NCBI GenBank assembly: GCA_025454525.1
Contig: JALOOG010000055.1
Span: 1 to 62,533, forward strand
Direction of reading: 5' to 3'
From: Anaerolineae bacterium
Lineage (GTDB): Bacteria > Chloroflexota > Anaerolineae > Aggregatilineales > Phototrophicaceae
DNA: 62,533 nt
A model generated the notes under the pieces. It was given only the letters and a program-made list of their open reading frames with translations, was not told where the DNA came from and did no database searches. The position numbers and the translations under genes are program-made. Position 1 is the stretch's first letter, and every line of letters begins with the position of its first letter. Positions 28,159 through 36,589 of the stretch are shown in pieces.

Positions 28159-29211
28159 CTACGATTGTCCCGTGAGCCGATCAAGCGCTTCTTGGGCGGG
28201 GGTGAAATTCGGGTTAAAAGCGATCGCGCCGCGATAGTTATCAATGGCGCGGTCAATTTCCCCTAGCCCTTCACGCGCTACTCCCGCGTAATAGAACGTT
28301 TCTTCCACATAATGCCCACCCCCGTCATTCAGGTTTTGTTGGGCTAAGGCGATCACATCGGAATAACGTTCGACCGCGTTATACGCTTCCAGTGGGCCGA
28401 ATTGATACCACAACATCCGCCACGGTAAACCCAAATTACGCGCTTGATCATAAGCAGTGGCCGCTTCGGCATACATGCCAAGTCCGACAAAGTTGGTTCC
28501 CATATTGAACCAAGCAAACGCATCAGTCGGATCCGCGACCGCTTCCTCACGCGCCAATTCTAAGGCGTTGATGTAATTTTGCCGTTCATCCGCGTCGGTA
28601 TCCAACAATTGCAGCAATTCCGGCTCACGTCCGCTTTCGTACAAGACGATATAAGCATAGTTAAAGTGTTGCCAAAACGTCAGGATGTGTTCGTAAGAGT
28701 AATTCTGATTTTCACCCAGATAGCTATCGTTCGTAATGATCACATTCACGCTGTCATCATAGCCTTTTGCGAACAGATAATGCCCCATCCAACCAAGTCG
28801 ATCCGGTTCAGGGTCATAACCCGCTTCAATGATCACCGGAAAATTATTCGCGATCAAGGTTTTGAGCAACGTCAAATCGCCGCCATAGCGTTTGAGTGCA
28901 AATACGGGCAATTCGGGGATCTCGTTATTGACAAATTCCACCATTTGCCACGGGCTAACATTTTTATCCTCACGATTCGGCTTAAGCCACTCCGCCGCCC
29001 GCCCTTGATCATCCGAATAACCGAAATAGGTGAGCGCGCTAGTCAAAGTAGCGGGGCCACAATTGTTCCACCATTGCGCTTCCCACCGGACATTTTGCAG
29101 TTGATAATAGGTGGGCAGTGGTTCAGCGGTCGCTTCCGGTGTCACATCTTGCGCCCAAATTCCCATGGTAATCAGCAGCAAGAGTGCTGCCATGAATGCA
29201 CGTTTAAACAT
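28159..29211 (-). CDS. Secreted C39-like cysteine peptidase with TPR tail
   Basis: About 350 aa with a signal peptide (AFMAALLLLITMGIWAQ). The papain-like C39_2 domain (about 40-205) has Cys in NNCGPATLTSAL, His in GHYLFAKGY and Asn/Asp in ITNDSYLG. The C-terminal half (about 225-345) is built of TPR helices (AFAWFNMGTNFVGLGMYAEA, AIDNYRGAIAFNPNFTPAQE). The start is uncertain: AAAGGA lies only 1 nt before ATG 29211, and TTG 29226 is an alternative. It is extracytoplasmic and its substrate is unknown. It is divergent from the first TPR gene of the AT-rich island. No transporter domain is fused, so it is not a bacteriocin exporter. Confidence 0.8.
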   Translation of the reverse strand: MFKRAFMAALLLLITMGIWAQDVTPEATAEPLPTYYQLQNVRWEAQWWNNCGPATLTSALTYFGYSDDQGRAAEWLKPNREDKNVSPWQMVEFVNNEIPELPVFALKRYGGDLTLLKTLIANNFPVIIEAGYDPEPDRLGWMGHYLFAKGYDDSVNVIITNDSYLGENQNYSYEHILTFWQHFNYAYIVLYESGREPELLQLLDTDADERQNYINALELAREEAVADPTDAFAWFNMGTNFVGLGMYAEAATAYDQARNLGLPWRMLWYQFGPLEAYNAVERYSDVIALAQQNLNDGGGHYVEETFYYAGVAREGLGEIDRAIDNYRGAIAFNPNFTPAQEALDRLTGQS

Positions 29212-29444
29212 ATCCTTTAACCCCAATCTGATTCACCAACTTCTAGCATTATATATCAACGCCGCGCTGTCAATCCCATCGCTTTACCGACGATTACCCT
29301 ACGCTTGCGTTTTCTAATGAAATTGTGTTATTTTAATCGTTTTCGGTTCTTTATGGAAAACAGTTGCATCTTATCTGTTTCATCGTATCATTAATTTATA
29401 AGCGTGGTTTTTTGCTATATACCCAGTCTTAACAAGGAGCAGTT

Positions 29445-30593
29445 ATGAACAAGGCATTGGTCTGGTTAAAAGAGTTGGACGTACATCACAATGATGCGGC
29501 ATGGTTTAACGGTGTAGCAGACGAGATTTATGTAGACACCAACAAAGGATTAAACCAATACGGACGCAAAGACCATTTTACGGAGCTTTTAATTTCGATT
29601 GAGACGTTGATCCCCACACAAATTGATCTAAAACGGTGGTGCGATCTGATGTTCAAGGCGGTTTCAGAGACGATTAAATCCAAGAATATCGCCTTACGTT
29701 GTCAGATTATGATCAGCGCAGGCAACATCTATCGGCTTTTTGGGGATGCGGATCAAGCGGAGCGCCTTTATATCCAAGCGATCCAATTGGCGCATCAGCA
29801 TCAAGTCCATCTCAAAGTCATTCAAGGCTATGCTGGGTTGCTCACCTTAACACAATATCACACCAGCGCCCATATCCAATATGAAGATTTTCCACATCTC
29901 TTGGTTTATCATCGTGAATTACGTGACCCGAATACATCGGCCGATCTCTACTTGGCTATAGCCAATGCGTGCAGACAGTGGGGACGTTTTCAGGTAGCGC
30001 TTGATTATGCTCAAATGGCGTTCGCTTATTGGTCAAATCAAGGAAATGCGCTGCAAGTGGCACGGGCGGCCAAGATCATCGGCGAGTGTCATCTTCGGCG
30101 TGAGACGGTTTTCGGGTATGATGAAGCTGAACGTTGGATTAACATTGCCGCCAGAAACTTTGAAAAAACCTCCTATATCTGGCAATACGGCGAAATATCC
30201 CACTTGCGCGGTAGTTTAGCGTTTTACCGCCAAGAATACGACAAAGCCATTGAACACCTGAAAATAGGCATTGCTCACTCTAAAAAATTAGGGAACATCT
30301 ACCTTTCCGGTATCTTGCATCATACCTTAACTTGCGTTTTAGTGATGCAAAAAGAGTATAGTCAAGCAACGGAAACACTGGAGCAAGCTGTCTCTTACTT
30401 TCGTGAGTCCAATAGCTCATTCCAAATTTTACATACCCAACACAGTCGTGCGTGTATTGCGTTAGGTCTTGGAAATCAAGAAACCGCTGAGACGATTGTG
30501 AAAGAGGCATTAAAAGAAATCGGTGAGTTAAAAGATATTGGTCAACAGCAGTTTCTAGAGAAGAAATTTCGAGATTTGATAAACAACACCTAA
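29445..30593 (+). CDS. TPR protein 1, Rap-sized, possible peptide receptor
   Basis: A 382-aa soluble, all-helical protein. An N-terminal helical region of about 85 residues (conserved W...L...WF motif) precedes six to seven TPR-type helix pairs (ADLYLAIANACRQWGRFQVA, YIWQYGEISHLRGSLAFYRQ, DKAIEHLKIGIAHSKKLGNI). It has no signal peptide, membrane helix or visible helix-turn-helix. Length and layout match Rap-type RRNPP receptors, but homology is not shown. It is clearly paralogous to the genes at 32199 and 33596. AAGGAG precedes the ATG. It ends in a perfect bidirectional terminator shared with the convergent mini-gene A. Sequence around it is visibly AT-richer than the rest of the window. Confidence 0.7.
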   Translation: MNKALVWLKELDVHHNDAAWFNGVADEIYVDTNKGLNQYGRKDHFTELLISIETLIPTQIDLKRWCDLMFKAVSETIKSKNIALRCQIMISAGNIYRLFGDADQAERLYIQAIQLAHQHQVHLKVIQGYAGLLTLTQYHTSAHIQYEDFPHLLVYHRELRDPNTSADLYLAIANACRQWGRFQVALDYAQMAFAYWSNQGNALQVARAAKIIGECHLRRETVFGYDEAERWINIAARNFEKTSYIWQYGEISHLRGSLAFYRQEYDKAIEHLKIGIAHSKKLGNIYLSGILHHTLTCVLVMQKEYSQATETLEQAVSYFRESNSSFQILHTQHSRACIALGLGNQETAETIVKEALKEIGELKDIGQQQFLEKKFRDLINNT

Positions 30594-30608
30594 CAGAAAT
30601 CATAATTT

Positions 30609-30647
30609 AAACACAAATGCCTGTCATATGACAGGCGTTTGTGTTTT
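30609..30647. terminator. Bidirectional terminator between TPR gene 1 and mini-gene A
   Basis: An 18-bp stem (30609-30626 with 30629-30646, containing TGCCTGTCA/TGACAGGCG) has T or A tracts on both sides. It starts 22 nt after the stop of mini-gene A. Confidence 0.9.
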
Positions 30648-30668
30648 AGTAACTTTTATTGTTTTTAA

Positions 30669-30698
30669 TCAGTAAGGGCCGATGGGCGGGAATGGCAT
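30669..30698 (-). CDS. Mini-gene A: 9-residue peptide MPFPPIGPY
   Basis: ATG at 30696-30698 (minus) has Shine-Dalgarno GAAAGGA (30706-30713) 8 nt upstream. The frame is ATG, eight codons and TGA, giving MPFPPIGPY, with a terminator 22 nt later. Mini-genes B, C and D have the same organisation, and A-C have a co-linear upstream region. A peptide this short without a signal sequence would be made in its final size. A role as an intracellular or secreted signal for the neighbouring TPR proteins is inferred, by analogy with leaderless peptides of RRNPP-type systems. Confidence 0.6.
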   Translation of the reverse strand: MPFPPIGPY

Positions 30699-30705
30699 AC
30701 CACAA

Positions 30706-30845
30706 TTCCTTTCAAAAATTCATCTGCTGATATTCCAAGTATCGCAAATGAGCGTATTTGACCGATATTTGAACAGACAATTAATAGTCTTTAGCCAAAC
30801 TATATGAAGTCAGTTATAACCCTTAATTCTGACATACGTCAATTT
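30706..30845 (-). promoter_or_regulatory. Conserved upstream region of mini-gene A
   Basis: On the minus strand this region has TTTGCGATACT (extended -10-like, about 45 nt before ATG), a block read on plus as TTAATAGTCTTTAGC (from 30781), and GACATACGTC (30831-30840) with the dyad TGAC..GTCA. GACAT lies 133 bp upstream of the ATG. The same blocks are at 132 bp in units B and C. Confidence 0.55.
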
Positions 30846-31024
30846 CAGAACTAAGAAAAATAATATATAACAAATATTTAAAATATCGTTTTGGTTTAAC
30901 ACAAGGCGTTTTAGTAAAAAACTCAAGTTAAATTCCAAGATTGGCCAAAATATGAGGAGATTAGAGGAAATCTAAATGTGTAGATCTTGTTTAAGCAGCT
31001 AAAAGTTTTTGAAGATGTGTAATT

Positions 31025-31056
31025 AAAAGATGCCTATTACAAAATAGACATCTTTA
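31025..31056 (-). terminator. Terminator of mini-gene B
   Basis: AAAGATGCCTATT (31026-31038) pairs with AATAGACATCTTT (31043-31055), with a T tract on the minus strand. It lies 22 nt after the peptide stop. Confidence 0.8.
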
Positions 31057-31077
31057 ACATTTAAAAAATTATCTTTA

Positions 31078-31110
31078 TCAATATGGCCCGATAGGTGGTA
31101 CAATGATCAT
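31078..31110 (-). CDS. Mini-gene B: 10-residue peptide MIIVPPIGPY
   Basis: ATG at 31108-31110 (minus) follows AAAGGA by 7 nt. Ten codons then TGA (31078-31080) give MIIVPPIGPY. It shares PPIGPY with peptide A although the codons differ (ATC-GGG-CCA-TAT against ATC-GGC-CCT-TAC). Synonymous differences with an identical product suggest selection on the peptide. It is flanked by its own conserved upstream region and terminator. Confidence 0.62.
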   Translation of the reverse strand: MIIVPPIGPY

Positions 31111-31117
31111 GATCTCA

Positions 31118-31250
31118 TCCTTTCAATAACTACATAGTTGATGTTTTTAGTATTTCAAATCAACACAAAGTCTTAGAGTTTTGACGGGCATTTAATAGTT
31201 TTTCAGCATTCTACACACAGCCAATGACAGGGTTTATTGTCGACATGATA
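31118..31250 (-). promoter_or_regulatory. Conserved upstream region of mini-gene B
   Basis: On the minus strand: GATTTGAAATACT (TG-A-AATACT, extended -10-like), then ACATCAAC and TTGAAAGGA before the ATG. On plus, TTAATAGTTTTTCAGC begins at 31192 (82 bp from ATG) and GACAT at 31242 (132 bp). The spacing is identical to unit C and within 1 bp of unit A. Confidence 0.55.
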
Positions 31251-31374
31251 GTAAACCAAAAATACCCAAAATTAATGTGAAGGCTTAAATGGATATTTTT
31301 ACTTATCCTGTTCAATACGAATTAGTAGGGGAGCGATTTAAGCAATGCGTGGATTTACTACATAGAAAAGATGC

Positions 31375-31405
31375 AAAAAAACGCCTACTAAAAATAGGTG
31401 TTTTT
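31375..31405 (-). terminator. Terminator of mini-gene C
   Basis: AAAAACGCCTA (31377-31387) pairs with TAGGTGTTTTT (31395-31405), 21 nt after the peptide frame's stop on the minus strand. Confidence 0.75.
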
Positions 31406-31425
31406 CGTGGTGATTAAAACGCTGA

Positions 31426-31459
31426 TCAGAATGGTCCAATAGGTGGAACTAATAACCAT
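31426..31459 (-). pseudogene. Mini-gene C: frameshifted VPPIGPF peptide
   Basis: AAAGGA lies 7 nt before ATG (31457-31459, minus), exactly as in unit B. One extra base after three codons moves the conserved VPPIGPF-stop (ending 31426) out of frame with the ATG. Read in the ATG frame, the product would be a 23-residue MVISSTYWTILI... that runs through the terminator. It is either a decayed copy or a diverged variant. A sequencing error is possible. Confidence 0.5.
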
Positions 31460-31466
31460 GACGTTA

Positions 31467-31600
31467 TCCTTTCAGAAGCTCATCTGTTGATGTGTTCACC
31501 ATTGCAAATTATCAATTCAGTTTGATGCTTTAAACGGCTACTAACCGCGTTTTAGCATCCTATGTTTAGTCAATCAATACCCTTAATTTGGACATAAACA
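31467..31600 (-). promoter_or_regulatory. Conserved upstream region of mini-gene C
   Basis: Shows the same blocks as A and B: AATTTGCAATGGT at the -10 position, CACATCAACAGATGA, CTTCTGAAAGGA, and on plus CCCTTAATTTGGACAT, with GACAT at 31591 (132 bp from ATG). The CCCTTAATT..GACATA string is nearly identical in unit A. Confidence 0.5.
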
Positions 31601-31756
31601 AGTTTTGTATTACTCAGATTTAAGTAATTCTTCTTGGGTTTTGTGTGATCCTTGTGATGCAACTTGGCTAAATGGGCATATTTTGGGCGTATACCCCTTT
31701 ATAACTTGCCATTGATGATTGTTAGAGTAAGTAATCGTGTCAAAACACATCGGTGA

Positions 31757-31945
31757 AAACACGAAACATGGGTTACGACTTTTCCGCTCATGAGTGCTAT
31801 ACTTTATCTAAGATGACTCGTATTTTTAAGGAGGGGGTGATGAACGATAAAGCGTGCTTACGCCTGATTTTTTGCCTTCTCATCGTTGATCTTACCGTCA
31901 AGCTTATGATGCGACCGCCGAAAATTTTTCGTTTGACCGTTGTTC
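31757..31945 (+). repeat. Dispersed ~200-bp element, copy 3
   Basis: The core TTACGACTTTTCCGCTCAT is at 31773-31791, TG-C-TATACT at 31795-31803, AAGGAGG before ATG 31840, and the 3' block GATCTTACCGTCAAGCT to GCCGAAAATTTTTCG at about 31888-31931. It is the most diverged copy. It lies about 250 bp upstream of, and on the same strand as, TPR gene 2. The arms of the dyad changed together (CATG...CATG), which keeps partial pairing. Confidence 0.65.
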
Positions 31946-31962
31946 GATCATCTCGTGATTGA
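31840..31962 (+). CDS. Small ORF of element copy 3 (40 codons)
   Basis: Strong Shine-Dalgarno AAGGAGG about 6 nt before ATG 31840. The product has a hydrophobic start (CLRLIFCLLIVDLTVKLMM) and a basic end, so it could be membrane-active. The peptide conserved with copy 1 (here SYRQAYDATAENF) lies in another frame of the same DNA, so this frame is not homologous at protein level. It may be a shifted pseudogene or a meaningless frame. Confidence 0.25.
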   Translation: MNDKACLRLIFCLLIVDLTVKLMMRPPKIFRLTVVRSSRD

Positions 31963-32198
31963 ACACAGGTTGACACCATTGTCCTATGGCGATCTACGCG
32001 CTGTTTGCATACACTATATTTTGCTCTAAAATATAGGCAGTAAATGGGCGTGATTGCCTTAAAACATCATTTAAATCCGCTTTAAACTATGAGCTTTTGA
32101 AAAGGGTAAGTTGTATCTATTGACTTAGATGTGGTAAAACAATACAGTATTGCCCATACTATCAGACAGATTAAAATCCATGAACTCCAGAGGTGCTT

Positions 32199-33374
32199 AT
32201 GAACAACGCAAAAACATGGATCCAAACTCTACGCCAACGTCCGTTTGATCTACCATGGTTTCATACAATTGCTCCAGAATTGTATCGTGATATTGAAGCG
32301 GGTTTAAAAGAGCGAAAAAAACGAGAAGGATTTATAGAAGTTTTAATTGAAAGTGAACGTTATCTCCCAACACAAACCCAATTTGAACCTTGGCGCATCC
32401 TCTTAAATCAAGCCACCGAGATCGCCTCTCGTATTCCCAATATCCCACTACGTTGTCAAACGCTGCTCTCATACGCAAATTTTCTTTCGGCGTTTTCAAA
32501 AGTAGACCTTGCTGAATCCCTTTATGAACAAAGTATTGACTTGGCTTATACCCATGATCTCCAGATCGAATTGATCCGGGCTTATATTGGCCTGATGTTT
32601 TTAAATCGTCATCGTCCGGTCAAACGTATCGCCCCTCAAGACATTATCGAAATCATCACTTACCGCTGTAATTTGCGCGATCCTAAACTTAGCACACGTT
32701 TGTATCAGGCCGTCGCCTACGCTTTACGCTTTAACGGAGATACTGAACAATCGTTGAACTACGCTTACATCGCCTTCATTTTTTGGAAAAGGTTAGAATC
32801 TCCCTTAGAAATTGCGCGCTCCGCACAAGCTATCGCTGAAACTTATCTAACTCAAGGCAACACCGAAGCATCAGATACTTGGTTCGCTCTCAGTGGCGTT
32901 TACTTCCTACAATGTGAATATCGTTGGCAGTATGGTGAGGTATTATTACAACGCGGTAAAATCGCTTACGATCAAGAGGATTATAACAAATCTGCGGAAA
33001 TGTATGGCTTTGCCCTCACCGAATATCTGCAATTAGACGATTATTTTAAACAGGCCGAAACCTATCATCGGATCGCTGAAGCGCTCATGATGTTAGGGCA
33101 ATTTGATCAAGCCGAAAAGCATCTTAACACCGCGGATCAGTCCATGCGCGTTTTAAATAACCGTATTCAAGAGTTATATATCTACTACACGCGCTCACTC
33201 CTAACGATTAAACGTAATGATCAAGCATCGGCGCTCGAAATGGTGGAAGAAGGATTACAACGCAGCCGTAGGCTTTTGAAAGAGGATTACAAACAACATC
33301 TTACGCAACTTTTTGAAACCCTCCAACAGCAACTACAACTAACCGATTCTTCAACACCTCAACTTATGGATTGA
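32199..33374 (+). CDS. TPR protein 2, Rap-sized, possible peptide receptor
   Basis: A 391-aa soluble TPR protein, paralogous to the genes at 29445 and 33596. The N terminus NNAKTWIQTLRQRPFDLPWF followed by APELYRDIEAGLKERKK matches TPR protein 3. Helix pairs continue through STRLYQAVAYALRFNGDTEQ, WQYGEVLLQRGKIAYDQEDY and AEKHLNTADQSMRVLNNRIQ. I prefer ATG 32199 over GTG 32193, based on AGAGG spacing and alignment with the paralogues. There is no DNA-binding motif. It follows element copy 3 and mini-gene C. If the peptide hypothesis is right, it is one of three receptors with different specificities. Confidence 0.7.
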   Translation: MNNAKTWIQTLRQRPFDLPWFHTIAPELYRDIEAGLKERKKREGFIEVLIESERYLPTQTQFEPWRILLNQATEIASRIPNIPLRCQTLLSYANFLSAFSKVDLAESLYEQSIDLAYTHDLQIELIRAYIGLMFLNRHRPVKRIAPQDIIEIITYRCNLRDPKLSTRLYQAVAYALRFNGDTEQSLNYAYIAFIFWKRLESPLEIARSAQAIAETYLTQGNTEASDTWFALSGVYFLQCEYRWQYGEVLLQRGKIAYDQEDYNKSAEMYGFALTEYLQLDDYFKQAETYHRIAEALMMLGQFDQAEKHLNTADQSMRVLNNRIQELYIYYTRSLLTIKRNDQASALEMVEEGLQRSRRLLKEDYKQHLTQLFETLQQQLQLTDSSTPQLMD

Positions 33375-33408
33375 CCAGAAAGGACAAAAAGGCACTTTAA
33401 GAGCGGGT

Positions 33409-33428
33409 AAAGCAAAAAATGCTTTTTT
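33409..33428 (+). terminator. Terminator of TPR gene 2
   Basis: AAAGCA (33409-33414) and TGCTTT (33420-33425) form a short stem followed by a T run. The remaining gap to 33595 is AT-rich and holds only an 8-bp stem at 33488-33517 of unknown meaning. No mini-gene unit is seen there. Confidence 0.6.
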
Positions 33429-33595
33429 AAATAAAATTTAAACAAGCTTGATGAATGCACTTTTTAAGTTTGAGATGCTCAAAATGTGAAATTAGTAGCT
33501 TAAACCGAGCTAATTTCAAAAAAAAGTTGCGTTAACAAGAACATCTATGATATTCTTAGTCTATTGTGAACTATGCTTTTTCGGAGAAAACAACC

Positions 33596-34765
33596 ATGAT
33601 CATCGATACCGTAGCCGTCTGGAAAGAAAAATTACGCAAACACGCCGTAAACGGCCAGTGGTTTTCAGAAGCCGCTCCTGAGATTTATAGAGACATCCAA
33701 AAGGGACTCCGGCAAATTCCCCAAAAACGTGAAGAGTTTACTGGTGTATTGATCGCCACTGAACCCTTTTTACCAACCCTCGGACAACTGCAACCGTGGC
33801 GCGATTTAATGGTTAATGCGATCAATGTAACCTCAAACTCTAAAAATCTTGCTCTGCGCTGTGAGATTATGATCGCCACAGGCAATATGTACGCGATGTA
33901 TGGCGATTTTGAACGTGCGGAAGAGTTATTTATCAAGGCCTGTGACCTTGCCTATGAGAATAATTTACCGCGCCAAGTGATCAACAGCTATATCGGCATG
34001 ATGAATCTTTCGCTCAATACCTATCAACGCATCACCTATCAAGATCTACCTGCGCTACTGGATTATCATCCTGAACTTCGGGATAGTATGATGACCGGTA
34101 AACTCTATCTCGCCATCGCCAATGCCTGTAAGCAATGGGCGCAATTCCAGACAGCCAACGATTATGCCAAAATGGCCTATGTCTATTGGCTAAGGCAGAA
34201 TAATTATGTCGAAGTGGGGCGCTCTGCTAAAATCTTGACGATCACTTCTATCTATCTCCGTAACTTCTCAGAGGCCGAAAGTTGGTTAGAAATTGCCGAA
34301 CAATGCTACTCCAAAACCGACTATATTTGGCAATATAGCGAAATTCTCTACCTCAAAGGCCAACTCGCCAACGAACATCAAAATTTTGATGAAAGTCTAG
34401 AGTACCTACAAAAAGCCTTGGAAGAATTCAAAAAATTGGATGACCCTAATAAACATGCCGTCGCTTATCACGCCATTGCTCAAGCCCATATTCATAAACG
34501 TCAATTTGAGCAGGCCGAGGCGAACTTAGCCCAAGCAGACGACATCGCCCAAAAAACCAATAACACTTTCCAACGCTTACACATTCTCCACACCAATGCT
34601 TATATGAATGCGAAGCGCGATCGCCGTCAAGATAGCTTAGAACAGATCAAAGTTGGGCTAGAAGTCCTCTCCTCTTTGCAAAACGAGACTCAATTCCAAA
34701 TGCTTCAACAGAAGTTTGAAGAATTGCAACAGATGATCATTAACGACGACCCACAACTAAGCTAA
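33596..34765 (+). CDS. TPR protein 3, Rap-sized, possible peptide receptor
   Basis: A 389-aa soluble TPR protein. ATG 33596 with CGGAG about 9 nt upstream is preferred over GTG 33566. From here the product aligns with protein 2 (WKEKL..WFSEAAPEIYRDI). It is closest to TPR protein 1: GKLYLAIANACKQWAQFQTA, ESWLEIAEQCYSKTDYIWQY and AFHA-type helices align without large gaps. It lacks signal peptide, membrane helix and helix-turn-helix. Convergent mini-gene D follows across a shared terminator. The repetition of receptor-plus-mini-gene is the main reason to suspect a signalling system. Confidence 0.72.
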   Translation: MIIDTVAVWKEKLRKHAVNGQWFSEAAPEIYRDIQKGLRQIPQKREEFTGVLIATEPFLPTLGQLQPWRDLMVNAINVTSNSKNLALRCEIMIATGNMYAMYGDFERAEELFIKACDLAYENNLPRQVINSYIGMMNLSLNTYQRITYQDLPALLDYHPELRDSMMTGKLYLAIANACKQWAQFQTANDYAKMAYVYWLRQNNYVEVGRSAKILTITSIYLRNFSEAESWLEIAEQCYSKTDYIWQYSEILYLKGQLANEHQNFDESLEYLQKALEEFKKLDDPNKHAVAYHAIAQAHIHKRQFEQAEANLAQADDIAQKTNNTFQRLHILHTNAYMNAKRDRRQDSLEQIKVGLEVLSSLQNETQFQMLQQKFEELQQMIINDDPQLS

Positions 34766-34780
34766 CCCACATCACCCCCT

Positions 34781-34822
34781 AAAAATGCAACAGCCTATCT
34801 CATCGATAGGCTGTTTGCTTTT
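34781..34822. terminator. Bidirectional terminator between TPR gene 3 and mini-gene D
   Basis: ACAGCCTATC and GATAGGCTGT form a perfect stem (34790-34814) with an extended GCA/TGC base, flanked by A and T tracts. It lies 20 nt after the stop of mini-gene D. Confidence 0.85.
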
Positions 34823-34841
34823 AATAAGCTTACATCAAAAA

Positions 34842-34865
34842 TCAGGGCAAAATCGGGAATAACAT
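34842..34865 (-). CDS. Mini-gene D: 7-residue peptide MLFPILP
   Basis: ATG at 34863-34865 (minus) has GAGAGGAG about 9 nt upstream. Seven codons end at TGA (34842-34844), giving MLFPILP. It is shorter than A and B but keeps a hydrophobic, proline-rich M-x-F-P-I-x-P pattern comparable to MPFPPIGP. The upstream region is recognisably related (ATTTGAAATACTGAAGACAT) but has small indels. It lies convergent to TPR gene 3. Confidence 0.5.
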   Translation of the reverse strand: MLFPILP

Positions 34866-34871
34866 TGCGGT

Positions 34872-35006
34872 TCGCTCCTCTCTTCAGTTGTCGTTTGATG
34901 TCTTCAGTATTTCAAATCCGACAGGTGAGAGATGGCGTTTTTACTACAATTACAGACATTTAATTAATATATTATACTTAATACTAAGACGGAATTTCGT
35001 CAATTT
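34872..35006 (-). promoter_or_regulatory. Conserved upstream region of mini-gene D
   Basis: On the minus strand GGATTTGAAATACTGAAGAC matches unit B at the -10 region. GACGGAATTTCGTC (34988-35001) is a dyad at the position where A has TGACATACGTCA. The rest of the gap to 35233 is AT-rich and I see nothing else in it. Confidence 0.5.
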
Positions 35007-35233
35007 AATTACAGATTCAGCGTAAGTTCTTACACTTTTTTATTTTTTCTTAAACCAAAATCGATGAATTTTTTAATAGATAAATATGTAACGTAATTTG
35101 TGAAGTTATTAAAACTGACAGTGAACGGTTAGTGAACTATGAATGATATTAGCAGGCAAAGCGTAGGGTGATCGTGGTTTATCCAACTTGGAAAGAAATT
35201 CATTTCGCTTTATAGTTTGACTCATCGGGCGGA

Positions 35234-36589
35234 ATGCACATGGACAATCGTATGTTTTATCGACTACTGATCATCATTGGACTTATCTTAGGGGCGGGGA
35301 CATCTAGGGCGACCACCGATGTTCCCCCAAATTATGTGATCAATCTGATCACGGCTGACATCACGAACGGGCAAATTGAAATTGAATTTGGTGTTACCAA
35401 TATCGGCGGCGCTTCCAATATCAGCACACAGGCGGAACTGGTGGCCTTTGATGATAATGGAAATGCGCGGGTGATTGCACGCGAAACCTTGCGGCCACTT
35501 AATGGCAATACCGATCGCGAAACCTTGATTTTACGAGCGGATGCTGTTCAATTTCCGGCGAATAGTCAGCAGATCTTTCGTATTCAGATCGCCAGTCTTC
35601 CCGGTCAACCTGCCATCACCAGTGATACCGAGTCGATCAGTCTCACGATGACCACTTCATCCGCGCCTAACCCAAGTCCCACCAATGCGCCGGAGTTTCA
35701 ATTCCCCGATCTACGGTTACAACTCAATTTTAACGCCCAAGAGCGCGTCCTCTTGTCCATGGGGATTATCGCGGCAACGATGCTGCTCTTGTTACTGTTA
35801 CGCCTCTTATGGCGCTTATTATTCAGTCAACCCGTCGACTTCACCACACCATGGCAGCCTCCCTATGCCACCATGCCTCAACTTGATCCTTATAGTGTGG
35901 GGGGAGTGCGTCAAGCTTGGCAACCGTATGCCCAAAATAACACGCTTACGGCCACAGCGATCCCAAATGCTTATCATGTCACCAAGCACTTGATCGGCAC
36001 AGACGGCGTTTATTTGTCCGGTTGGCAGATCATGGCGATGCGCCTCGTTCAATACGATCAATTCGGACGGGTGTCACGGAGTCAAACCCTTGCCCGACCT
36101 TGGATGCTCAAACGCTTAAATCGCCTCATGCAAAAGAATCGGGGCTTGAACTCTAAACAGCTTGAGCGACACTTACAACCGATCGCGAAGCGCCTCATAC
36201 GTCAATTTTATAAAAAAATCACTCGGCGTAGTGCGATGCTACCGATCGCGTTAGATGTTCGTCTTAAAGGAACGCATGGTGAGGTCAATATTTTCTTTGA
36301 ATTGTATCAATTTCAGCCCAACGGTTGGCTCCCCCTAGATCGTTGGCAACCAGAGATGATCGTGACCGGAAAAACCCTGCATGAAAGTTACACCTTTACC
36401 CTTTACGGACAGACCGGAAACGAAACATTACGCCAATTCCGTCAACGCTTACCCCATGATTTGACCCGCGTGCTAAGCGAATTTATCGGCGCAAAATCAA
36501 CGCAAGTCCGATCTAAACCTACTTCTGGCCCGATCGCACCCGATACTCCCACCACAGCAACCACTCCCTCTGTACCGATCAAGGAATAA
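35234..36589 (+). CDS. Membrane protein of unknown function with outer beta domain
   Basis: A 451-aa protein. It has a signal peptide (FYRLLIIIGLILGAGTSRA), then an Ig-like or CARDB-like domain (about 30-145: IEIEFGVTNIGGASNISTQA). A Pro/Ser-rich linker leads to one membrane helix (about 174-194, LLSMGIIAATMLLLLLLRLL). The cytosolic domain of about 250 aa begins PWQPPYATMPQLDPYSVGGV and ends in a Pro/Thr-rich tail. I recognise no family for the cytosolic part. The start is ATG 35234 or 35240; ribosome-binding sites are weak. A bidirectional terminator follows. Confidence 0.65.
   Translation: MHMDNRMFYRLLIIIGLILGAGTSRATTDVPPNYVINLITADITNGQIEIEFGVTNIGGASNISTQAELVAFDDNGNARVIARETLRPLNGNTDRETLILRADAVQFPANSQQIFRIQIASLPGQPAITSDTESISLTMTTSSAPNPSPTNAPEFQFPDLRLQLNFNAQERVLLSMGIIAATMLLLLLLRLLWRLLFSQPVDFTTPWQPPYATMPQLDPYSVGGVRQAWQPYAQNNTLTATAIPNAYHVTKHLIGTDGVYLSGWQIMAMRLVQYDQFGRVSRSQTLARPWMLKRLNRLMQKNRGLNSKQLERHLQPIAKRLIRQFYKKITRRSAMLPIALDVRLKGTHGEVNIFFELYQFQPNGWLPLDRWQPEMIVTGKTLHESYTFTLYGQTGNETLRQFRQRLPHDLTRVLSEFIGAKSTQVRSKPTSGPIAPDTPTTATTPSVPIKE

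Follow-up and report, generated by a model that had tools for sequence, protein, structure and literature searches.

Do genes of only seven to ten codons that point toward the 3' ends of genes for tetratricopeptide repeat (TPR) proteins encode a signal for those proteins? The question is raised by an island of three TPR genes and four mini-genes in contig JALOOG010000055.1 of an Anaerolineae bacterium (Chloroflexota, order Aggregatilineales, family Phototrophicaceae; GenBank assembly GCA_025454525.1), the 62,533 nucleotides of which are called the window here. A preliminary description of this DNA had proposed communication by leaderless peptides and TPR receptors, and the proposal is now supported by the pairing of the genes, the class of peptide, the third-position changes, a shared promoter-like element, and the precursors of sister families. 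In our view, the island probably holds a dedicated peptide/receptor signaling module that is RRNPP-like in its working; it looks like an undescribed bacterial peptide-signaling system, in which the peptide would be bound by the TPR protein and serve cell-to-cell communication. Comparison among relatives shows a convergent pair at its core, namely an all-TPR protein and a small gene with its own promoter-like element and hairpin. Judged by sequence, the small gene would yield a leaderless, mostly proline-rich peptide in the window's family and mostly a Sec-like precursor with a C-terminal Cys/Pro/Gly peptide in the sister families. Below, handles starting with L stand for loci or contigs and those starting with G for genomes.

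Mini-genes paired with TPR genes

The three plus-strand TPR genes were described correctly as paralogs, and their positions and lengths are borne out: TPR1 (29445..30593, 382 amino acids), TPR2 (32199..33374, 391 amino acids), and TPR3 (33596..34765, 389 amino acids). All three match TPR_12 of Pfam (TPR1 at 4.1e-12, and at 2.8e-126 with a profile of 19 relatives), and they are the only paralogs found in the whole 5.24-Mb genome. TPR1, which consists of TPRs throughout, and TPR3 are the candidate receptors. On the minus strand, units A, B, and C point to the 3' end of TPR1, and unit D faces TPR3. Mini-gene A (30669..30698) encodes MPFPPIGPY (9 residues), B (31078..31110) MIIVPPIGPY (10 residues), and D (34842..34865) MLFPILP (7 residues), whereas in unit C (31426..31459) the sequence VPPIGPF is shifted by one base relative to the frame of its ATG, as had been noted. 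Unit C is a candidate decayed copy, frameshift, or assembly error.

Each unit indeed has a purine-rich Shine-Dalgarno site and a downstream hairpin. Hairpins that can be read two ways occupy the TPR1/A interval (30592..30663) and the TPR3/D interval (34789..34815), both according to the terminator scan; those 3' of B (31027..31054) and C (31375..31405) were recognized by sequence and, for B, by folding of the stretch. In a set made up of A, B, D, and 28 relatives (31 mini-genes, with C, L006, and L019b excluded), the 80 nt past the stop fold at a mean z of -3.6 against base shuffles, and 28 of the 31 lie below -1.5. A generic terminator scan of the minus strand flags A and D and no other unit, and the overall counts are near chance (8 terminators against 5.6 expected, 20 promoters against 17.8). 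The proposed alignment of A to C without indels, up to a GACAT block, fails for A: ATGTC stands at -137 in A and at -136 in B and C, and ungapped identity over 133 nt is 0.57 for B-C, as opposed to 0.32 for A-B and 0.34 for A-C (shuffled mean 0.28). A degenerate pattern for PPIGP[YF] followed by a stop, run on the window's genome only, has three matches in its 5.24 Mb, all in the island, and none in the reversed control; an overly strict mini-gene pattern had no matches in the window.

The pairing recurs well beyond the window. A protein search of 98 genomes found TPR homologs of 20-25% identity in 21 further genomes of the window's family, and a TPR profile at 1e-25 matched 39 of 154 genomes of the order, 33 of them in that family. 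With repeats removed and a single script applied to all genes, a convergent proline-rich mini-gene was found at 26 of 31 TPR genes and at none of 137 other genes of the same loci, nor at any of the nine TPR genes of outgroup f42, which adjoin STAND-type genes (seen in L059). The script asked for a Shine-Dalgarno site and ATG, 7-40 codons, at least 25% proline, convergent orientation, and a position within 250 nt of the TPR 3' end; contig-end cases (G039, G041, G060, G097) and a second, partial TPR gene in G019 are outside the count. Four of the five misses carry a proline-rich mini-ORF (open reading frame) visible by eye, giving 30 of 31 in all: L008 and L075 have slightly less than 25% proline, and L051 and L053 lack a Shine-Dalgarno match. 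The fifth is TPR2; no mini-gene lies at its 3' end, a point absent from the preliminary description. All mini-genes beside TPR genes converge with the TPR 3' end when loci are read in contig orientation.

The peptides of the relatives, such as MVFELPPGYPPDPPPQR, MKKPGPYPPLPPPPSI, METNGGPTGPIVPPPMQ, MDPRPPIILPA, and MFGYDGPRPPTPWGP, keep the proline-rich class and the pairing with a TPR gene, as the preliminary description would have it, but PPIGPY itself is not among them. Two mini-genes stand in tandem in L019, and in L052 and L054 DPPLPPIPPPN is encoded twice, with DPSRRG between the copies; tandem duplication of the peptide is a known trait of pheromone precursors (PMC11343458). That the mini-ORFs arose by chance next to TPR genes with which they have no connection might be argued from single cases, which mean little since very short ORFs with a Shine-Dalgarno site are common, and from the scan criteria, which were fixed only after the first examples were known. 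Set against 26 of 31 versus 0 of 137, the tandem duplicate, and the fixed promoter geometry described below, however, this explanation has a negligible probability and cannot be maintained for the whole family; for unit C it may hold.

Codon-level comparison, suggested earlier as a check, shows that changes fall mostly at third positions. The differences at positions 1, 2, and 3 are 1, 1, and 9 for L052/L054; 1, 0, and 7 for L010/L012; 3, 1, and 13 for L005/L008; and 2, 1, and 7 for A/B, where PPIGPY is spelled, as claimed, with different third bases. Pairs without this signal are L051/L053 (2, 6, and 6), L004/L013 (2, 1, and 2), and L004/L006 (identical). Over 33 mini-ORFs, near-copies included, proline makes up 37% of residues, and all four of its codons are used.

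In wider class and phylum samples, 16 of 396, 30 of 396, and 4 of 400 genomes held candidates, and in the last sample the three matches besides the window sit in open frames of 947-1627 residues. The negatives of these samples are weak because only four candidates were scored per genome and known cases were missed (G043 in the sample with 30 of 396).

A shared promoter-like element and its possible regulator

Ahead of the mini-genes lies a common layout, not mentioned in the preliminary description, in which three TGTCCG boxes 11 nt apart are followed by an extended -10-like TGMRANNCTG and, four bases further, by YATCR. With this four-base spacing fixed (and L019b and L070 excluded beforehand), the -10/YATCR pattern matches 30 of 32 leaders, the exceptions being L007 and L024. 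The boxes reach a score of 14 of 18 or more in 26 of the 30 matching leaders, where box 3 stands 32-34 nt ahead of the -10; the remaining four are the window's units, in which the -10 and YATCR are accompanied by a single degenerate box in register. On the minus strand, A has TGCGATACTT, four bases, and TATC (30729..30746), with TGTCTG 33 nt upstream (30774-30779); B has TGAAATACTA and CATC (31140..31157), with TGCCCG 33 nt upstream (31185-31190); C has TGCAATGGTG and CATC (31489..31506), with TAGCCG 34 nt upstream (31535-31540); and D has TGAAATACTG and CATC (34897..34914), with TGTCTG 44 nt upstream (34953-34958). We infer that these elements act as promoters, with the motifs marking the -10 and the start site. 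Of 24 genomes, 12 have a single exact triple box each, at the mini-gene locus in every case, and the other 12 and the reversed control have none; two-box matches outside the locus (26 versus 24 in the control) are background.

Some leaders also fold over the Shine-Dalgarno site (13 of 28 relatives at z below -1.5, mean -1.8). The leaders of L005, L008, L009, L011, L012, L015, and L046 contain an inverted repeat around CATCG that pairs into this site, with varying stem sequences but conserved pairing; depending on where transcription starts, it is a candidate RNA hairpin masking the site or a candidate DNA operator. Leader folds and the terminal hairpin are what one would expect if the unit acted as RNA, be it a small RNA or a polyproline-stalling attenuator with read-through antisense into the TPR gene. 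We nonetheless hold an RNA role to be very improbable: substitutions concentrate at third positions, Rfam gives no match at gathering scores, the sister precursors have Sec-like N-termini, and A, B, and D lack such a leader fold, their peptides having PP or no proline pair.

In the signaling module, the peptide would leave the cell (by the Sec route in the sister families and by another exporter in the window's family), be taken up again, and bind the concave groove of the TPR protein. Following Rap-like logic, the peptide-bound receptor would alter the activity of a separate DNA-binding protein, and one target would be the peptide's own promoter, resulting in autoinduction. Rap proteins act on the response regulators ComA or Spo0F. 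Here, the three 11-nt boxes suggest that the partner may belong to a regulator class with a helix-turn-helix (HTH) domain like region 4 of sigma-70. In two records (L111, Chloroflexi; L176, Caldilineaceae), a gene combining such an HTH with a receiver domain has the triple box at its start. Among 30 relatives of this gene, several of which were read in the wrong frame, eight have TGTCC-type triples at their own start (L216, L218, L220, L225, L228-L231) and six have variant triples (L233, L237, L240-L242, L244), with nothing clear at the rest. All eight come from one genus, g22, where the searches found no TPR system.

As an obligatory activator, the HTH + receiver protein was rejected. An HTH match occurs in 93 of 98 genomes of the family, so its presence does not track the system, and a better profile matches 28 of 30 chosen genomes and neither G002 nor G044, despite their exact boxes. 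The class is kept as no more than a lead. Many of the 28 genomes were matched only via a roughly 650-residue protein, with a hydrophobic N-terminal half and a C-terminal HTH, that is seen in most genomes of the family (for example L358:2391-4340, minus strand, with a HisKA_7TM match; L359:1261-3183, minus strand; L361:390-2309, plus strand). The scan for triple-box contigs returned mostly unrelated phyla among the matches listed. One Bacteroidetes metagenome-assembled genome, RUG13410, carries an 11-nt TGTCCG triple on many contigs (L105, L139, L145, L147, L150, L156, L159, L183, L192, L200), partly as inverted pairs; these are probably unrelated repeats or a regulon.

The candidate TPR receptor and known peptide systems

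A structure model of TPR3, built from an alignment of the three window paralogs, consists of helical repeats from end to end (mean predicted local distance difference test score 87.9). Searches of the window's TPR proteins revealed no HTH, either in Pfam (up to E 1) or in NCBIfam (up to E 0.01), in agreement with the earlier suggestion of Rap-like receptors without a DNA-binding domain. Comparison shows an all-TPR protein without a recognizable DNA-binding domain and, going by the model, capable of forming a groove. Two conserved residues, Y252 (Y in 14 of 19 relatives) and H292 (H in 17 of 19; TPR3 numbering), would face this concave groove because both stand at TPR position 5, which we take to be the canonical groove-facing position. 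Structural matches of the model include RapF, phage Raps, NprR, and AimR. Rap chains, which have a three-helix bundle at the N-terminus, align from about residue 82 of the model onward, and its residues 1-80 form five helices. By sequence, RapI is matched at 3.3e-14, yet LGN at 1.1e-14, and designed TPRs score better too. Matches to RGG_Cterm of NCBIfam (25.3 bits, cut-off 36.9) and, for TPR3 only, to Rgg_C of Pfam (18.5 bits, cut-off 27) stay below threshold, so that the receptors do not group with the RopB/Rgg homologs. Defense and phage libraries gave weak TPR-type matches only, and receptor L009 was not found in viral contigs with patterns of close relatives.

Intracellular peptide quorum sensing of this type has been described in Bacillota. 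With the RRNPP(A) systems of that phylum (Rap-Phr, NprR-NprX, PlcR-PapR, Rgg-SHP, AimR-AimP), the pairs share a TPR protein beside a small peptide gene, the structural alignments just mentioned, and, in the sister families, a Sec-like precursor with a C-terminal candidate peptide. They differ in the missing HTH, which all RRNPP receptors but Rap possess, and perhaps in the N-terminal domain of Rap, which was not recognized; other TPR proteins match the receptor equally well. In addition, the genes are strictly convergent, the peptides are proline-rich or contain a Cys loop, a dedicated 11-nt triple box is present, and the window's peptides are leaderless, in contrast to precursors with an export leader. 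Bacillus Rap shares the similar size, the lack of an HTH, and a possible partner of the response-regulator type; the partner here is putative, however, and in sequence Rap appears no closer than other TPR proteins. As in the leaderless communication peptides (LCP/SIP), a Shine-Dalgarno site, an ATG, and a few codons would make up the entire signal, but the peptides of RopB are hydrophobic and RopB itself carries a DNA-binding domain at its N-terminus, whereas here there is no HTH and the peptides are proline-rich. In the RopB clan, too, related receptors are paired with precursor-type peptides (SHP; PMC10518010).

Other TPR proteins offer looser parallels. PMC12433258 describes binding of proline-rich and PxGP peptides in the TPR-type groove of collagen prolyl 4-hydroxylase, and PPIGPY contains PIGP; the peptide-substrate-binding domain of that eukaryotic enzyme has no signaling role and serves as an analogy only. 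TPR regions of the NsdA family and AfsR, as well as FxSxx and HaaT, are among the named sequence matches, all with scores below the curated cut-offs. We take these proteins to be actinobacterial. The TPR models of FxSxx/cyclophane RiPPs (ribosomally synthesized and post-translationally modified peptides) stay below their cut-off and are not among the matches of the window's proteins. In the open-licence literature, no comparable system in this bacterial group was found among the matches listed. Chloroflexi are not mentioned in PMC9765709 or PMC10075063 (word search), and RRNPP and Chloroflexi appear together in one open-licence paper, in its references only.

Precursors in sister families, counterevidence, and neighboring genes

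When distant receptors were included, the profile at 1e-18 matched 60 of the order's 154 genomes, and 23 of these belong to families other than the window's. In 21 of these 23 (G105 was not included, and G106 meets a contig end), the locus was examined. At 15 of the 21, a precursor of 53-69 residues is encoded convergently; it ends in a Cys loop, and its N-terminus is Sec-like as judged from hydropathy and an early K/R. L073 encodes MTKRYVFLLAFVLALIVVVSGMHAMHVNMGLGFDGIPAPATPLCPLPWPPIGC, and other C-termini are CPPPGFGSCGGG (L077), CPIPSEPGCDGG (L078), CPGSGSPGCGGG (L315), CPFPIPPGC (L324), and CPNTSGGGSGC (L279). The same filter passed none of 33 other genes of the precursor-bearing loci; a figure of 15 out of 15 comes from loci preselected for a precursor, the fair count being 15 plus one leaderless case of 21. 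This last case is G131 (L070), where the peptide has 27 residues and no leader and the boxes read TGACCG; most sister loci have two or three TGTCCG-like boxes.

In a quick tree of 59 rows, the 31 receptors of the window's family form one clade (Shimodaira-Hasegawa-like approximate likelihood-ratio test 99), with the precursor-type receptors outside it, the f42 TPRs at the root, and several long branches. Two changes between leader and leaderless states suffice. This topology leans toward the leader having been lost on the way to the window's family, G131 being a second leaderless case. Receptor and peptide similarity are correlated (rho 0.37, n 30, p 0.0004; thinned, n 22, rho 0.31, p 0.007). 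We tentatively entertain, at somewhat less than even odds, a family of communication systems across the whole order that stands apart from RRNPP in its architecture: TPR receptors lacking a DNA-binding domain, convergent peptide genes, a dedicated triple 11-nt operator, older, secreted Cys-loop precursors, loss of the leader in the window's lineage to give a proline-rich leaderless signal, and output through a receiver-bearing regulator with the sigma-70-region-4-like HTH. If true, precursor-type as well as leaderless signals would exist in a second lineage, and leader loss could be traced on a tree. Genes of 7-20 codons tend to escape routine gene finding, and a TPR 3' end, a convergent mini-gene, and three 11-nt boxes could serve as a signature in searching for them.

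The Cys-loop and Gly-rich C-termini also invite comparison with RiPPs, bacteriocins, or antimicrobial proline-rich peptides, for which the TPR protein would be a regulator, immunity, or maturation factor, and the L073 TPR protein is weakly like the RiPP-associated HaaT and FxSxx of NCBIfam. Its scores are far under the cut-offs (40.9 versus 1125 bits and 26.6 versus 300), though, most leaderless peptides carry little positive charge by sequence, and no maturation gene was recognized beside the pairs in seven larger loci, where N-termini only were inspected and unsystematically. Such a role therefore seems improbable to us.

Several observations weigh against the signaling module. Neither an exporter nor an importer was identified, and NCBIfam named three of ten genes tested left of the island, none of them an exporter. 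Within the window, unit C is out of frame, D is weakly proline-rich, and TPR2 stands without a mini-gene; among the relatives, the second, partial TPR gene of G043 (L068) has none either, L051 and L053 lack a clear Shine-Dalgarno site, and these two differ more at codon positions 1-2 than at position 3. Five of the 21 sister loci have no precursor (L071, L331, L332, L335, L336). LGN, APPBP2, and subunits of the APC/C match the TPR3 model at least as well as Rap does, and the correlation of receptor and peptide is equally expected from plain common descent.

In the window's family, neither a leader nor an exporter was seen, and there is a single dedicated promoter per genome; the peptide might instead be a TPR ligand (cofactor or inhibitor) acting only inside the producer cell, the leaderless lineage having made a secreted signal private. 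We consider this unlikely, though the least unlikely of the alternatives: the sister families have Sec-like precursors, and Bacillota export and sense leaderless peptides (PMC10518010).

Some further features were seen around these loci. In L300 (G344), which belongs to a different family of the class, a convergent 49-residue ORF with a strong Shine-Dalgarno site, ending in CGGSSGGGC, lies 3' of a TPR gene and is possibly a more distant member of the system. In L064, L060, and L061 (f42), other 11-nt tandem repeats, of the CTGCAAATCAA type, occur 79-87 nt past the stops of the outgroup TPR genes. Divergent from TPR1, the window encodes a protein with a C39-like peptidase domain followed by TPRs (28162-29226, minus strand). 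Finally, look-alike secreted or membrane-anchored proteins of 440-467 amino acids, without Pfam assignment, are encoded near the peptide gene in three genomes (window 35234-36589, plus strand; L080:9807-11210; L082:5578-6900), and a promoter-like TTGGAA..TATAGT site precedes the gene in the window.

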